This document shows, one piece after another, positions 26,780 to 48,434 of a stretch of 64,000 bases of DNA (positions are counted from its first letter, which is position 1; each line of letters begins with the position of its first letter). The stretch is from Selenomonadales bacterium. Lineage in GTDB: Bacteria > Bacillota > Negativicutes > Sporomusales > UBA7701. The stretch spans positions 62,001-126,000 of the forward strand of contig JARKPR010000047.1 in assembly GCA_029975165.1 (NCBI GenBank). The letters run 5' to 3'. The notes beneath the pieces were generated by a model. The model saw nothing but the letters and a program-made list of their open reading frames with translations, was not told where the DNA came from and did not search any database. A program made the position numbers and the translations under genes.

Positions 26780-27829
26780 CTAGTGGCGCGCTTCGCTTTT
26801 CCTTATCCCGGCCAGCACCGGCCCGGCCGCCGCCGACCGCAGGTAGGCGTAGGTGGTCTCGGGCACCATCGCCTTTATCCCCGCCCAGTCCTCCCGCCTG
26901 ATCATCGCCCGCACCGCGGACGCGCTGATAATCTCGCCGCCGGTCATCGCCCGCGCCACCACCTTCACAGCCACGCCATGGCGGGGCAATATCTCGCCCA
27001 GGGCTCGGTTGTAGGCCGCCGTCACAGTGCAGTAGGGTTCCTCGCCCACATAGCGGGCCGTTATCCCCAGCGGCGGGGCGAGCCGCGCGGCGAACAGCGT
27101 GGCGTCGAGCCGCGTCTGGGCTGTTACCGCCTCCTCGCCGCGCGTGAAGTAGGCCGGGAAGGTCGCGGCCGAAATGATGTAATCGCCGCCGGAAACCACG
27201 GCGACATTGGCCAGATGGGCCGTGCCCTCGCGTACGAGGCGGCGGCGGACGGCGAACGGGAACAGCGACCGGTCCTCGCTGACCACGAAGACGATGACGC
27301 TGTCGTTTTCCGCCGCCGCCCGGGCGATGAGCGCCTCATGCCCGAGGGTGAATGGGTTGCAGTTGACCACCAGCGCGGCCCGCCGGCCGGCCGGCAGGCG
27401 GGCGATCTCCTGCTGCACGCCCCGGCAGAAATCGTCCACCGAGCCCAGCCCGCCTTCGAGCAGGGCCACGTACGGCTCGGCCCTCGCGATCTCCCGGAAG
27501 GCCAGCCCGGCGAACTTGGCGGCGCTGCCCGGCCGCGTGTAAAGGAAATAATGGTAAATGCCCCGCCGCCCCGCCTCGCCGACCAGGTTGCTGACGACGG
27601 CCGCCGTAAGCCCTTCGCCCTGGATGTCCGCGGCGACGGCGATGTTGCGCAGCACCTTGCCGGCCAGCGAGCCGGTGGCCACGATTTGCTCGCCCTGGTA
27701 AAAGGCCACGGTGTAGTCGAGCGGCGCCTCGTACGCCAGCCCGAACTGCGCCAGGAAGGCCGCGACCGCCGCCGTCTCCTTGCGATTGTCCTGGTCGATG
27801 ACCCGTTCGTCGAAGCTGTCCCAGAGCAT
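26780..27829 (-). CDS. citC: [Citrate (pro-3S)-lyase] ligase
   Basis: A 349-residue protein that acetylates the prosthetic-group thiol of citrate lyase using ATP and acetate, switching the enzyme on. An N-terminal GNAT-like domain (about 1-125) precedes a nucleotidylyl-transferase domain with the HIGH-type motif CNPFTLGHEAL and the C-terminal ISASAVR motif. The start follows GAGGTAGGC, and the gene begins 2 bases after citF, so coupling is tight. It is encoded within the operon citD-citE-citF-citC-citXG. Confidence 0.93.
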   Translation of the reverse strand: MLWDSFDERVIDQDNRKETAAVAAFLAQFGLAYEAPLDYTVAFYQGEQIVATGSLAGKVLRNIAVAADIQGEGLTAAVVSNLVGEAGRRGIYHYFLYTRPGSAAKFAGLAFREIARAEPYVALLEGGLGSVDDFCRGVQQEIARLPAGRRAALVVNCNPFTLGHEALIARAAAENDSVIVFVVSEDRSLFPFAVRRRLVREGTAHLANVAVVSGGDYIISAATFPAYFTRGEEAVTAQTRLDATLFAARLAPPLGITARYVGEEPYCTVTAAYNRALGEILPRHGVAVKVVARAMTGGEIISASAVRAMIRREDWAGIKAMVPETTYAYLRSAAAGPVLAGIRKSEARH

Positions 27830-35616: not shown

Positions 35617-36930
35617 TTATCCGATCTGCGGCTTGCCCGCCAGCAGCGGCAGAGTATTCGCTCCCTGGGGCATGACGATGAACCGCGGCTTGCTCAGCCC
35701 GCACTTCTCCTGCGCGATGGCCAGCGCCTCGTCCAGCGTAGCGGCCGGTATCATGCCCGTCTTCTTCACCAGCGCGAAGTTCTCCGGCCGCGTCACCATG
35801 ACGAACGTCGCGACGTCGCTGCACTCCATCTCCTTCAAGGCCACCATCCCCGGCAGCGAAAAATCGGCCCGCAGCGCTTTTTCCACCGCCAGCTTGTCGC
35901 CGAGCTCGAACCAGTCCGCGAAGCCCTGCGGCTCGTGAATATCCGGGCACTCGCTGAGCACAATCACCACGCCGCCCTTTTTCACGGCGTAGCAGGCGTT
36001 GTCCATCGTTTTCCCCGTCTGGTACAGGTTGATGTCCTTCGGATAGCCCCCCGCCGTCGTGACCACGATATCCGCCTTGGCGGGTATGGCCACGCCGTAT
36101 AGCTCGGCCGCCAGCTCCGTGCCCGCGAGCCAGGCCGAAACCCAGTTGCCTGCGAACACGCCGGCCACCCCGCCGCAGGCCGTGGGCACGATATTGAGAA
36201 TGAAATCCGGCTTGACGAACGCGGCGATCTCCATCATGTCCTCATGGGCCGCGTTGCCCTTGAGCTTCCCCGACATGCAGTTCGGGTCCGAGCCGTCGCC
36301 GAGGTTCGGGCCCAGCAGCAGCAGGTGATTCCGCTGGATCGTCCCCACCGCGCTGCACCCCGGCAGGATGCTCTTCCGGCCGCCGCCGAACCCGGCGTTG
36401 TAGTGATATATTATCCCGCCGGTGAGGATAACCCGGTCGGCCTCGGCCACCAGCCTGTTAATCCGCACCGCGGTGCCGCGGCTCGTTTTCCCGCGGTAGA
36501 CCATGTTGGCGTCGTCCCAGGCGTCATGGTTCAGCACCCGCACCCGCCGGCAGACGCCTGCGCCGCACAGGTCGCCGATTTCGCCCTCGCTGTTCTGGCG
36601 GTGGGCGCCGACGACGATCAAGATGGTGATATCCCCGTCGGCAACGCCGGCCGCGTTCAGCTCATCCAGCATAACCGGCAGAATCAGGTCCATCCGTTGC
36701 CAGCTCCGGGTGATGTCGCTCACCGTGATGACGACCTTTTCCCCGGGGCGGGCAAGCTCCCGGAGCGGCGGCGCGTCGATGGGGCGGGCCAGCGCCTCGC
36801 GGACGGCCTTTTGCAGGTCCGGGAGCGGGGGCACCTCCTTGCCGACGATCTCGCAGACCAGCTGCTCTTCGGGAATACGCAGCGGCAATGCCGTTTTTCC
36901 GTATTTCAGACTAAATTGATGGTCGCCCAT
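35617..36930 (-). CDS. LarA-like nickel-pincer enzyme (lactate racemase family)
   Basis: A 437-residue protein of the LarA/DUF2088 family. The residues that hold the nickel-pincer cofactor in Lactobacillus LarA (H108, H174, K184, H200) all appear here with a constant offset of two: H110 (VVGAHRQ), H176 (GIIYHYNAG), K186 (GGGRKSILPG) and H202 (QRNHLLLL). The lysine forms the thioamide link to the cofactor. LarA interconverts D- and L-lactate; paralogues act on other 2-hydroxyacids. No larB, larC or larE maturation genes lie in this window. A PanB-like gene is 28 bases upstream on the same strand, so the two are cotranscribed. Confidence 0.88.
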   Translation of the reverse strand: MGDHQFSLKYGKTALPLRIPEEQLVCEIVGKEVPPLPDLQKAVREALARPIDAPPLRELARPGEKVVITVSDITRSWQRMDLILPVMLDELNAAGVADGDITILIVVGAHRQNSEGEIGDLCGAGVCRRVRVLNHDAWDDANMVYRGKTSRGTAVRINRLVAEADRVILTGGIIYHYNAGFGGGRKSILPGCSAVGTIQRNHLLLLGPNLGDGSDPNCMSGKLKGNAAHEDMMEIAAFVKPDFILNIVPTACGGVAGVFAGNWVSAWLAGTELAAELYGVAIPAKADIVVTTAGGYPKDINLYQTGKTMDNACYAVKKGGVVIVLSECPDIHEPQGFADWFELGDKLAVEKALRADFSLPGMVALKEMECSDVATFVMVTRPENFALVKKTGMIPAATLDEALAIAQEKCGLSKPRFIVMPQGANTLPLLAGKPQIG

Positions 36931-37958: not shown

Positions 37959-38933
37959 CTATTTGGTGTTTATGATGGCGTCGATCTTATCCTTGCCGAA
38001 CTCTTTGGCGAATTCGTCGAAAGCCGGCTGCATGGCCTTCTGCCAGGCCGCCTTGTCGACGTCGCGGGTGACCGTGAAGCCCTTGGCTTCCATCTCCTTG
38101 ATCTTGGCCTCTTCGGCGTCGCGGTTGATCTTGCGCTGGAACTGGGCCACTTCGAGGGCGGTCTTGCGGAAGATTTCCTGGTCTTCCTTGGGCATCTGGT
38201 CCCATCTCTTCTTGCTGACGATGATCGGCGCCGGCGAATAGACGTGGCCGGTCAGCGCCAGGTACTTCTGGACTTCGTAGAGCTTCGAGGAGTGGATGAC
38301 CGCGATCGGGTTCTCCTGGCCGTCGATTACCTTCTGCTGCAGAGCGGCGTACACTTCGCCCCAGGCCATCGGCGTCGGGTTCAGGCCGGCGGTTTTGAAG
38401 GCCAGCAGATGGACCTTGTTCTCCATAACGCGGATCTTCAAGCCCTTGGCGTCCTCAGGCGTTTTGGTCGCGCTGCGGGAGTTGGTCAGGTGGCGGAAGC
38501 CGTTTTCCCAGAAAGCCAGGCCGACCAGTCCCTTTGCCTCCATGCCTTTCAACAGCTTCGCGCCTGCGGGGCCATCGAGCACCTTGTCCACTTGGGCGTC
38601 GTTGATGAAGATGTACGGTGTTTCCAGCACGTAGTAAATCGGGTTCTGCTGTCCAAGTGGCCCGGTCGTCGTCATCAGCATATCGGTCATTCCGGTCTGC
38701 AGTTGGCCGATGATCTCGCCTTCCGAACCGAGAGCCCCGCCCGGGAATACCTGGACGTCGAGACGGCTGTTGGCCCCCTCCAGCCGTTTCTTGAGTTCCA
38801 GCGCTCCTTCATGGATCGGTCCGCCGGCTGTTCCGTAACCAACCTTGATGACGATCTTGTCGGCCGTTTGCGCCAATGCCGATGTGGTTCCAACCAGCAC
38901 CAATGATGCAGCTAATACCAACTTCTTGAACAT
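37959..38933 (-). CDS. TRAP transporter solute-binding protein, DctP family (orphan)
   Basis: A 324-residue periplasmic receptor. The ATG at 38933 lies behind CAGGAGGTAGTC. The signal peptide ends at an AxA site (TSALA-QT), so the protein is soluble, not a lipoprotein. VGYGTAGGPIHEGALELKKRLE, VFPGGALGSEGEIIGQLQTG and LKIRVMENKVHL match DctP proteins, whose conserved Arg pairs with the ligand carboxylate. The membrane partners dctQ and dctM are absent on both sides, which is unusual. The gene lies exactly where the window changes character, and its glycine codons change from mixed GGA/GGG/GGC in codons 1-135 to only GGC afterwards. The substrate is probably a carboxylate. Confidence 0.88.
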   Translation of the reverse strand: MFKKLVLAASLVLVGTTSALAQTADKIVIKVGYGTAGGPIHEGALELKKRLEGANSRLDVQVFPGGALGSEGEIIGQLQTGMTDMLMTTTGPLGQQNPIYYVLETPYIFINDAQVDKVLDGPAGAKLLKGMEAKGLVGLAFWENGFRHLTNSRSATKTPEDAKGLKIRVMENKVHLLAFKTAGLNPTPMAWGEVYAALQQKVIDGQENPIAVIHSSKLYEVQKYLALTGHVYSPAPIIVSKKRWDQMPKEDQEIFRKTALEVAQFQRKINRDAEEAKIKEMEAKGFTVTRDVDKAAWQKAMQPAFDEFAKEFGKDKIDAIINTK

Positions 38934-44589: not shown

Positions 44590-44623
44590 ATGGCAGGTGA
44601 AGGGTTGTGCGTTCTTGGAGTCT

Positions 44624-44650
44624 AATATACATTTCTTTCCAATGTATATT
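44624..44650. promoter_or_regulatory. Perfect inverted repeat between marR and the antiporter gene
   Basis: AATATACATT (44624-44633) and AATGTATATT (44641-44650) are perfect complements separated by 7 bases, centred in the 107-base space between two divergent genes. Length and symmetry fit a MarR-type operator controlling both. Confidence 0.7.
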
Positions 44651-44696
44651 TTCGGTGGTCGTTTTTTTAGGCTCCGCTCATGTCTGCGAGAACGAA

Positions 44697-45911
44697 TTGC
44701 TATTGAACTCGGTTCAGTTGTTCGGGATTGTACTGCTCGGTGGGCTTTGCGCAGGCGAGGTCTCTCGTCGCGTGCTAGCGCTTCCGCGGACGACTGGTTA
44801 TGTCGTGTTCGGGCTGTTGCTTGGGCAAAGCGGCCTGAAGTGGATCACCCGCGGGCATATCGAATCCGCGCAGTTGTTCATCGATCTGGCGCTGGGACTG
44901 ATTCTGTTCGAACTCGGTTACATGGTTCCGCGTACCTCCGCGTCTACGAGTTGGAATCGCCTCAAAGTCGGAGGCGCAATTTCGCTGGTCAGTGCGACCG
45001 CCATTGCCGTCACTTTGGCGGCATGGGGGTTTCCGCTCAAGACCTCAATTTTTGCGGCGGCATTGTGTCTGGCAACCTCTCCGGCAATCACCATTGCCAC
45101 TACAAGCGATGTTGGAGCCAAGGGCGACAACACGGGTCTGCTCCTGACCTTGGTTGCCATCAACGGATCTTTGGCTTTTGCAGGGGTTACTTGGGCCACC
45201 TCGACACTCGCGCTGTCCCAGGGATACTTCAGCGGCGATGTCCTTGCCGGGGCAATGCAGAAGATCCTCCGTTCCGTCGCACTTGGGGCTGGGTGTGCCG
45301 CCGTGGTGCTGCGTGGGGCAAAGCGTCTCGGACGACAGTCTGATCACCAGCACTTGCTCATCATCGGAACGATCGTGTTCGGGGTCGGCATGGCCTTGTC
45401 TCTCGACCTGTCGGTCTTCTTTCCGATGTTGGTCTTTGGCTACCTGACGAAAATTCTGGATCGCAAGAATTCTGTCGTCGCCATCCGCATTGCCAGCGAC
45501 GCGCGAATATTCCTGGTCATCACGTTTGTTCTGGCCGGGGCCGCTCTGGACATCGGTCTGGTGCCTCGCTATTGGCCGATTGCCGTTTCAATCGTGGTGG
45601 CGCGCTTCGCCGCCCAATTTCTGGCCTTACGCACCTGCCGGAACGCGCTCGGAATGACTCCGCGTGTCGCCGGCTTCGCCGCCATCGGATTGCAGCCGAT
45701 GTCGAGTGTCGCGCTGGTGCTTCTGTCGAGTACTCAATCGCTCTATGGGACTCTGGAGGCCGATCTCGCCGGATCATTGATGGCGACGATACTGCTGCTG
45801 CAACTCATCGGGCCGCTGGCGACCCAGACAGCCATTCTGGGATTTGGCGAAGCCACGCATTTGAATCGCCACCGGTTCCGACAGGATTCGTCCACACCGG
45901 AATCCGCGTAG
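44697..45911 (+). CDS. Cation:proton antiporter (CPA2/Kef-type membrane domain)
   Basis: About 404 residues if it starts at the TTG at 44697; in-frame GTGs at 44655 and 44607 exist, but the latter lies before the operator palindrome and is unlikely. About 12 helices are predicted. The first is QLFGIVLLGGLCAGEVS, and VFGLLLGQSGL with FIDLALGLILFELGY matches the Na+/H+ exchanger family. There is no visible cytoplasmic nucleotide-binding domain, only a short hydrophilic tail. It probably exchanges Na+ or K+ for protons. It is divergent from a MarR gene, which may link its expression to a small-molecule signal. Confidence 0.82.
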   Translation: MLLNSVQLFGIVLLGGLCAGEVSRRVLALPRTTGYVVFGLLLGQSGLKWITRGHIESAQLFIDLALGLILFELGYMVPRTSASTSWNRLKVGGAISLVSATAIAVTLAAWGFPLKTSIFAAALCLATSPAITIATTSDVGAKGDNTGLLLTLVAINGSLAFAGVTWATSTLALSQGYFSGDVLAGAMQKILRSVALGAGCAAVVLRGAKRLGRQSDHQHLLIIGTIVFGVGMALSLDLSVFFPMLVFGYLTKILDRKNSVVAIRIASDARIFLVITFVLAGAALDIGLVPRYWPIAVSIVVARFAAQFLALRTCRNALGMTPRVAGFAAIGLQPMSSVALVLLSSTQSLYGTLEADLAGSLMATILLLQLIGPLATQTAILGFGEATHLNRHRFRQDSSTPESA

Positions 45912-46129
45912 CAGACAAGACAAACGGATCAGCTCGGTTCCGGTCTTGGCGTGCAGGACAAAACAATAAGGTGCTCCTTTGAGAGATGCACCGAGGGCAG
46001 GCCGCTGCGCACAAATCGGGCAAAGACCCGGGGGCGGACGGTCGGTAGTGTGGAGCGCGCAGGACCGCGTGCCATGACAAAAAGGTTGCATTCAGAGCCT
46101 GCGCTCGTGAAGGCGCCAAGGAGGGGAAC
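45912..46129. other. Intergenic region upstream of the Tgl-like gene
   Basis: Some 218 bases with no supported gene on either strand. It must hold the promoter of the downstream trio. I did not find a convincing sigma-70 pair or operator. Confidence 0.3.
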
Positions 46130-47251
46130 TTGGATCGATCAAGTGAATGTATCGGTACGGAGACATTAGGGGTATTCATCCGCGGAGAATACGGCTGCGT
46201 CTCCGATGGAATTTTCCGGGCACTCGGCGACGGGCGGGTTGAACCGCTTGTCGTGATAACCGCGTGCAACGGCGGTTGCCGACTAACGTTGCGAGGGGAA
46301 GTGCTGGAGAAATGGGGGCCGAACCGCGATACGGCAAGAATTGCGGAGCTCCTGAATATCCAGCCTCGCTGCCACGAAGGAGAACTGGAACTCGAAATCA
46401 TGATTGCCATGTTCGGCAGTCCCGAAGAGTTTCTTTATCAAAGCTTCGATGAGTTCCTCTGCGCAGTCCGCGTGAGGCGGAACATTGTGCGCGAAGCGTG
46501 GCGTACCCAACTGGCGTTCAGCGCCAAAGAGGCGGAACGCCCGAAAGACTATTGGGATTATTCCGAGGAACGCGGGTTTGTCGTCAAGGCCGGGAAACCG
46601 ATCATCCGGGCGCTTCGGGAAGCGACGCAACCGTGCGTGTCGGGGATGTCCTACTCCTTCTCGTGTTATCGGGCGACCGAATACGTGACGCTGCTGGCTC
46701 TGGCACTGGAACTGGAGCAGACAGACAGCTTCCTGCTCGCCCGACTGCAGGAACAAATGGAAACCGAGGCCATCAAGTCGAGAAGGTTTCACGATGTGTT
46801 TCTCCGCGAGTATGGCTCGATGGAAAAACCGTTGCCGAAACGATTCTATGTGCCAGGCGACCGAGTCTGGTTCCGCAATCCCGACCCTCTATCCTCTGAC
46901 GTTGGCGGGTACGAAGGTTCCTGGGTTTTCTATCTGGGAAGCGGATACTTCTCCAACTTCTGGAAGCGTTCTCAACCGTATACTCTGGATACCAAATGCA
47001 TTGAAATCTTTCACTGGCGCCACGGGCTGTACGTCGACGCGGACGGCGTGCCGCAAATAGACGAAGCGGAAGTGGATAGGAATGTGCTGACGACGCTGAG
47101 TGATCCGTTAATGACCGAGATTATTCTCGACAGAATGCTGCGCTATCGGGACAACTCCGGCGAGTATCTGGATGGCGGATGCATTGATACGACGCGAGAG
47201 TGCGTGCGCTACATCGGTCGCAAAAGCGGCAATTTCCTGGAGGCGGCATGA
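46130..47251 (+). CDS. Transglutaminase-like protein related to Bacillus Tgl
   Basis: A 373-residue protein with a TTG start behind AAGGAGGGGAAC. From about residue 105 it can be aligned by eye with the spore-coat protein-glutamine gamma-glutamyltransferase Tgl of Bacillus: RxNIV (117-120), a YW pair (141-142), K-PIIRALRE (156-164), the catalytic Cys region SYSFSC (C179, where Tgl has FYAFEC), PGDRVWFRNPD (242-252; Tgl GDCLYFKNPE) and SWVFYLGSGYF (264-274). The Glu next to the Tgl cysteine is Ser here, and an NPE Glu is Asp. The first about 100 residues have no Tgl counterpart. It may crosslink or amidate protein glutamines. It is translationally coupled to a membrane peptide and an acyltransferase. 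Confidence 0.62.
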   Translation: MDRSSECIGTETLGVFIRGEYGCVSDGIFRALGDGRVEPLVVITACNGGCRLTLRGEVLEKWGPNRDTARIAELLNIQPRCHEGELELEIMIAMFGSPEEFLYQSFDEFLCAVRVRRNIVREAWRTQLAFSAKEAERPKDYWDYSEERGFVVKAGKPIIRALREATQPCVSGMSYSFSCYRATEYVTLLALALELEQTDSFLLARLQEQMETEAIKSRRFHDVFLREYGSMEKPLPKRFYVPGDRVWFRNPDPLSSDVGGYEGSWVFYLGSGYFSNFWKRSQPYTLDTKCIEIFHWRHGLYVDADGVPQIDEAEVDRNVLTTLSDPLMTEIILDRMLRYRDNSGEYLDGGCIDTTRECVRYIGRKSGNFLEAA

Positions 47252-47358
47252 TCATTCCGGCACTGTTGGCAACCGGATTGTTGGCGATGTTCGCCGGGTT
47301 TTGTGTTCAGTGGATTGAGATGGAGCAGGGGTGTTCTTGCCCCTCAGCCCGGCGATGA
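47248..47358 (+). CDS. 36-residue membrane peptide coupled to its neighbours
   Basis: The ATG at 47248 overlaps the stop of the Tgl-like gene (ATGA) and has GGAGG five bases upstream, inside that gene's last codons. The peptide is one membrane helix (IIPALLATGLLAMFAGFCV) followed by QWIEMEQGCSCPSARR with a C-x-C pair. Its own stop again overlaps the next gene's ATG as ATGA. Two such overlaps plus a strong ribosome site make it a real gene. The function is unknown; a linker between the two neighbouring proteins at the membrane is a guess. Confidence 0.68.
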   Translation: MIIPALLATGLLAMFAGFCVQWIEMEQGCSCPSARR

Positions 47359-48434
47359 GACCTGTCCCGAACTCGCTATCGATAATTGACGTCATCAAGG
47401 CGGTGGCTTCGCAGTTGATCGTCTGGCATCACTTCATCTCCTATGGCCCGATGGCCCGGACGGTCTACCCCCATGCGGCAAGCCTGTTCGACTGGCTTTA
47501 CAACGACGGGCGACTGGCTGTTCAGGCATTTCTGGTGCTTGGAGGCTTTCTTGCGGCGCGCTCTTTGGCGCCACAACCGCACCAGCTTTCATTCGATTCG
47601 TCGGGGGCGGAATTGGCCCGACTGGCCTGGCGCCGATACGTCCGGCTGGTTCGCCCCTATGTGGTGGCGCTCGCACTGGCCATTGTGTTGTCGGCGTTTG
47701 CACGCTTACTGATGTCCGATCCGGACACCCCGGCAGCCCCTTCGCTCAAGCAGGTGCTGTTTCATGTCTTGCTCATTCATGACATTGCCGGGGTGGATGC
47801 GTTGACGACGGGAGTTTGGTACGTGGCCATCGACTTGCAGTTGTACTGCATGCTGCTCTTGCTGCTGTGGGCCGCTCAGCGCCTCGCACAGGTGCTGAGG
47901 ATGGATGCCCAGACCCTGGGTTTGTCGTTCATCGTCGGGTTGGCTACGTTGTCATTGCTCTGGTTCAACCGCGACGACACCCTTGAATCATGGGGAGTCT
48001 TCTTCTTCGGAACCTATGCGCTTGGGGTCATGATGCAATGGGCTACAGCGGGAAGATCGAAGCAACCATGGATGATCGTCATGCTGTTGATTTTTGTGCT
48101 GGCGTTGGCGCTTGACTGGCGCAAGCCGCTGATCGCCGCGATGCTGGCCGCAGCCTTTCTTGGCCTTGGGCTGCACTCAAGGTGCCGGACGGACAACGGC
48201 CTCGCTCGATTCGTCGGCTGGCTCAGCCGTATCTCTTACTCGGTGTTCCTGATTCACTACCCGATTGTTCTGATTGTGGGAACGATCGTCGCCCGGTTAT
48301 GGCCGGAGAGTGTTTCCATGGCTGTCATCGGATTCTTGACCGCCTGGCTGGTGACCTTGTGGGTGGCAGACGCAATTCACGGTCGTGTGGAGGTGGCGTG
48401 GGCGGGGCGGCGTCCATTCGGCAGTTCGGTTTGA
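47355..48434 (+). CDS. Acyltransferase-3 family membrane protein
   Basis: About 359 residues from the ATG at 47355, which overlaps the stop of the preceding peptide gene (an in-frame GTG at 47331 is the alternative). About 10 membrane helices are predicted. SIIDVIKAVASQLIVWHHF near the start contains the family's paired histidine/aromatic region. GRLAVQAFLVLGGFLAARSL and VAIDLQLYCMLLLLLWAAQ fit the O-acyltransferase fold. At the C-terminus SYSVFLIHYPIVL is the usual OafA-like end. The family moves acetyl or other acyl groups to surface glycans or lipids. It is the third gene of the coupled unit with the Tgl-like protein. Confidence 0.85.
   Translation: MRPVPNSLSIIDVIKAVASQLIVWHHFISYGPMARTVYPHAASLFDWLYNDGRLAVQAFLVLGGFLAARSLAPQPHQLSFDSSGAELARLAWRRYVRLVRPYVVALALAIVLSAFARLLMSDPDTPAAPSLKQVLFHVLLIHDIAGVDALTTGVWYVAIDLQLYCMLLLLLWAAQRLAQVLRMDAQTLGLSFIVGLATLSLLWFNRDDTLESWGVFFFGTYALGVMMQWATAGRSKQPWMIVMLLIFVLALALDWRKPLIAAMLAAAFLGLGLHSRCRTDNGLARFVGWLSRISYSVFLIHYPIVLIVGTIVARLWPESVSMAVIGFLTAWLVTLWVADAIHGRVEVAWAGRRPFGSSV

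Follow-up and report, generated by a model that had tools for sequence, protein, structure and literature searches.

A TGL-domain protein subfamily of non-sporulating Betaproteobacteria that keeps the Tgl cysteine and has serine at both catalytic glutamate positions

The gene and its host

The window (the whole stretch of DNA analyzed, 64,000 nucleotides long and deposited as part of a Selenomonadales bin) contains at 46130..47251 (+) an open reading frame that starts with TTG and encodes a TGL-domain protein of 373 AA. A strong ribosome-binding site precedes this start, the Shine-Dalgarno AGGAGG being read from the sequence at 46119..46124 (+), five bases 5' of the TTG codon. The gene is flanked upstream, at a distance of 218 bp, by a Na+/H+ exchanger family protein (44607..45911, +; Pfam PF00999) and downstream, after 79 bp, by an acyltransferase-3 membrane protein (47331..48434, +; Pfam PF01757). 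It is intact in L005/L006, and an Accumulibacter MAG contains a copy with 94% identity; comparison with this copy gave dN/dS values of 0.17 for the whole gene and 0.11 for the core, so selection on the gene is purifying. The open reading frame is a real, conserved gene, and a paralogue with 49% identity lies on the same contig at C4:195026-195976.

The contig itself is chimeric. A junction, recognized by the switch of identity between its two sides, is located at 38491 inside a dctP (TRAP transporter) gene: to the left the sequence shares ~84% identity with G001, which belongs to the genus of the bin, while from 38,491 rightward, as compared up to 53,248, it shows 100% identity to a contig of a Propionivibrio MAG. 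That two genomes were wrongly joined during assembly, at a conserved gene, is much more probable than that everything right of the junction was truly transferred. Being chimeric, the window carries in its left 38 kb no information on the host of the TGL gene, and the junction makes any inference based on the bin unsafe for features to the right of it. Two genes of the left part are worth recording: a nickel-pincer-dependent LarA-type 2-hydroxyacid racemase (LarAH10; 35617-36930, -), which adjoins a TRAP transporter, and a citrate lyase ligase (26780-27829).

The bin, which is Bacillota-like and which we infer to be Negativicutes-like, might suggest that the gene comes from a spore former and encodes a spore-coat enzyme after all, as Spo0A is present in the bin (G000) and in a sister genome, and the bin groups with genomes of the phylum having Bacillus-type Tgl. 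This origin is extremely improbable in view of the sharp junction with its fully identical Propionivibrio sequence on the right, a 13-kb syntenic stretch (93% identity) that carries the TGL gene in the Accumulibacter MAG, the lack of TGL in every other genome among the 380 of the bin's class, and the lack of Spo0A in both betaproteobacterial MAGs nearest the gene. A further 8 genomes of their order that carry TGL were likewise free of Spo0A. The host of the TGL gene is a non-sporulating Rhodocyclales-type bacterium; an earlier note, made from the sequence alone, had placed the gene in a non-sporulating proteobacterial background, and the Burkholderiales-type MAG relatives, together with the 10 genomes free of Spo0A, bear this out.

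Domain layout and predicted fold

Tgl is a protein-glutamine gamma-glutamyltransferase that cross-links the Bacillus spore coat. The sole Pfam match of the window protein is TGL (PF20085; residues 81-282, E = 2.2e-30), and a score of 106.2 bits against a curated cut-off of 23.7 places it in this domain family, which was also matched by 10/10 aligned relatives. It does not belong to the NCBIfam equivalog NF002869, representing Tgl proper, where its 33 bits fall short of the cut-off at 307. A profile built from the ten relatives matched the solved Tgl structures of Geobacillus (E 1e-9) and Bacillus (E 8e-4). The motif blocks from which the earlier note had recognized a Tgl-like protein are all present, namely RRNIV at residue 116, YW at 141, FSC at 177-179, PGDRVWFRNP at 242 and WVFYLGSGYF at 265; the fourth of them, a strand motif encoded at 46853..46882 (+), includes the PGD(x4)F/N/D pattern also conserved in Bacillus-type proteins.

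Three parts can be distinguished. An N-terminal extension (residues 1-80; 46130..46369, +) precedes the TGL core; the extra domain had been put at about 100 residues, and while the extension itself stands, its length comes to ~80, as the Pfam match begins at residue 81. It is predicted to be beta-alpha-beta-beta-alpha (pLDDT 78 in a model of residues 1-104), and when compared on its own with the PDB it yielded no Foldseek match at E<=0.001, the best VIA Z being 2.7; by profile alignment it corresponds, from residue 10, to the N-terminus of an exported sister subfamily described below. The TGL core (residues 81-282; 46370..46975, +) is followed by a C-terminal region (residues 283-373; 46976..47248, +) in which K289, E292, H295, W296, R297 and the GGC-D-RE block (349-357) are invariant in the 35 members of the clade to which the protein belongs, and C290 is found in 34 of them.

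An AF2 model computed from ten sequences reached a pLDDT of 69 and a pTM of 0.77, a moderate overall confidence which is low beyond residue 340 and falls below pLDDT 50 in parts of the active-site region. Its only strong structural matches were the two solved Tgl structures, 4p8i (Z 15.6, rmsd 3.6 Å, 227 residues aligned; Foldseek E 4e-6) and 7c9j (Z 13.0), and no viral fold was matched at E <= 0.001. Based on this model the protein is predicted to have the Tgl (papain-like) fold, the outcome that the earlier note had proposed to check by structure prediction.

In summary of these likenesses, the window protein and Bacillus Tgl (PDB 4p8i, 7c9j; NF002869) have in common the TGL core, the predicted papain-like fold, the position of the nucleophilic Cys, and the PGD-x4-F-x-NPD and YLG strands. 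They differ in the N-terminal extension, an insertion, the C-terminal part and the non-sporulating host, as well as in the catalytic residues dealt with in the next section. NlpC/P60-type papain-like enzymes also place a Cys at the N-terminus of a helix, after which come a strand with PGD and one with x-V-x-YLG (in part after PMC10318531), but the position of their catalytic His, which is that of Glu187 in Tgl, is occupied by Ser in the window protein.

Active site, location and possible chemistry

Cys179 (46664..46666, +) takes the position of the catalytic Cys116 of B. subtilis Tgl; it is invariant in the clade (35/35), as the earlier note's reading had required, and Cys occupies this position in every other TGL group examined. 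Ser178 (46661..46663, +) stands at the position of Glu115, a residue present in 10/10 Bacillus-type proteins and replaced by Ser in 35/35 clade members. This change of the Glu before the Cys had been noticed earlier but its extent was understated, given that Glu187 (E in 10/10 Bacillus-type) is likewise replaced, by Ser264 (46919..46921, +), throughout the clade. Trp265 lies at the Asn188 position in all 35 members, versus N in 10/10 Bacillus-type proteins. The HMM comparison with Bacillus-type Tgl, a profile-profile alignment by hhalign with a probability of 98.7%, is ungapped at the Glu115, Glu187 and Asn188 positions; the His200 position reads as Phe277 when the stretch after YLG is taken without gaps, an assignment that is less certain because the automatic alignment is gapped there.

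In B. subtilis Tgl the C116A, E115A and H200A mutants are inactive and E187A retains ~60% of activity (PMC6490927). Since both catalytic glutamates are Ser in 35/35 members while the Cys is kept, the Tgl dyad is absent, and the mutant data imply that the loss of both should abolish the Tgl mechanism unless this has been replaced; with neither glutamate present, the cysteine would have to be activated by other residues. The suggestion that the chemistry may differ is strengthened accordingly. Distant proteobacterial TGL proteins display Asp-Cys with Trp at the 187 position, Asp-Cys with Glu, Glu-Cys with Leu or Glu-Cys with Glu, and among the groups examined an acid is lacking at both sites only in the 35-member clade and the exported sister subfamily. 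Polar residues invariant or nearly so in the clade are Ser178, Ser264, His221, His295, Glu184, Asn276 (34/35), E262 and E292; in the exported sister subfamily Trp and Gln stand at the positions of His221 and His295.

Regarding location, no clear N-terminal hydrophobic segment was detected in the window protein or its 34 clade relatives, whereas the sister subfamily has one. The acyltransferase-3 and Na+/H+ exchanger neighbors are not conserved at other loci, and across the 35 loci no conserved operon partner was found, recurrences being confined to sub-lineages and the commonest Pfam families occurring in <=3/75 neighbor proteins. The neighborhood of the gene gives no pointer to the envelope and contains no candidate substrate gene. 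The proposal of an envelope-modifying enzyme thus loses its support, in the absence of both a signal peptide and fixed neighbors and with the exported proteins forming a separate subfamily.

Taken together, we consider that there is about an even chance that the protein is a cytosolic, stand-alone, Cys-dependent acyl-transfer enzyme of the Tgl fold with a rebuilt active site, probably performing a related but changed chemistry on an intracellular target. The glutamine side chain of a target protein would acylate Cys179, and the resulting thioester would pass to an amine, giving a cross-link, or to water, giving deamidation; the cysteine would be activated by a residue set other than the Tgl glutamates, for which Ser178, Ser264, His221, His295, Glu184 and Asn276 are the best candidates, E262 and E292 being further residues that might fill this role. 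The activity, the alternative base and the class of substrate are what we infer from the conserved residues and the predicted fold. A more specific version, that of a widespread intracellular subfamily of non-sporulating Betaproteobacteria carrying out protein glutamine transfer or deamidation with a Cys whose activation involves no Glu, Asp or His at any of the known sites, is put forward only tentatively.

Losing both glutamates together with the His200 position would be just as compatible with another kind of reaction, or with a protein that only binds and whose Cys is structural, and three alternatives have to be weighed. A true cross-linking transglutaminase like Tgl, using other helper residues to weld a cytosolic assembly in Burkholderiales, would agree with the preserved TGL core and fold and with the fact that Tgl is produced active without processing, its tunnel architecture being the hallmark of the family (PMC6490927); nevertheless, the positions of both Glu, of N188 (W265) and of H200 are changed in all members, E115A or H200A alone inactivates the B. 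subtilis enzyme, and a substrate gene is missing nearby, leaving this reading rather unlikely. The same changes at N188 and H200, which mean that the substrate-guiding tunnel residues of Tgl are not kept, would fit a hydrolase on the Tgl scaffold (a glutamine deamidase, or an amidase/isopeptidase) instead of a transferase, as papain-like folds span proteases, transglutaminases, deubiquitinases and amidases (PMC10318531); the signature of a deamidase family is absent, TGL being the only domain recognized, and we regard a hydrolase as possible but doubtful.

Pseudo-enzymes usually lose their nucleophile. A binding or scaffold protein that has kept the fold and lost the chemistry would account for the disappearance of both known catalytic partners, but Cys179 is invariant throughout the 35 members, diverse as they are, the sister subfamily and all the distant proteobacterial TGL proteins examined have it too, and the YRA-EY residues flanking it are also conserved in the clade, which makes such a protein improbable. 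Returning to the acyl-transfer enzyme with a rebuilt active site, if it is active, it would separate the enzyme family from spore biology and offer a test of the ways in which a cysteine of the Tgl type is activated, and it might serve as a small cytosolic tool for conjugating proteins; should the activation really dispense with Glu, Asp and His at the known sites, the Tgl fold would have a novel active-site design, and protein cross-linking or deamidation would be carried out by a system that has nothing to do with spores.

Distribution and related subfamilies

Some TGL protein was detected in 40 of the 399 sampled genomes of the host's order (10%) and in 7/369 genomes of the host's class. 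A proportion of about one in ten in a non-sporulating order goes against the published view, expressed in a review, that Tgl-like genes are not found in non-spore formers (PMC3533761); our literature search found no paper describing non-sporulating Tgl homologues or the TGL clade. The TGL domain is already recognized by Pfam, and what is new is the clade in which the Cys is kept and both helper glutamates are lost. In the phylogenetic tree its 35 members group together (98/95), separate from the Bacillus-type set and from the exported sister subfamily, the named relatives include Glaciimonas, Limnohabitans, Comamonadaceae, Azohydromonas and Rubrivivax MAGs, and the clade is a Burkholderiales-wide subfamily. 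No copies of the gene were found in phages, plasmids or viral contigs, nor did the protein match any defence family or PHROG.

The exported sister subfamily of Burkholderiales (L105, L121-L126), for which no name was found, comprises proteins of ~420 aa that have the N-terminal domain in common with the 35-member clade and also share with it the Ser at the Glu187 position, a YEGS motif and the K..E...WR block; its profile alignment with the window protein covers residues 10-305 (99.7%). Besides the Trp and Gln mentioned above, it differs in a signal-peptide-like N-terminus and in a Gly at the Glu115 position. One member is located at L105:17233-18498, and in genome G1312 the exported copy and a member of the window clade are ~9 kb apart. 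Another TGL subfamily (L132, L133 and L135) displays Asp before the Cys, Trp at the Glu187 position and low-complexity N-termini; the L133 copies form a tandem pair, and synteny is common to L132 and L133. Finally, at L134:6341-8437 (-) a protein of 699 aa was observed to have an N-terminal TGL-like domain and, in its later part, a P-loop-like GMPGIGKTH motif.
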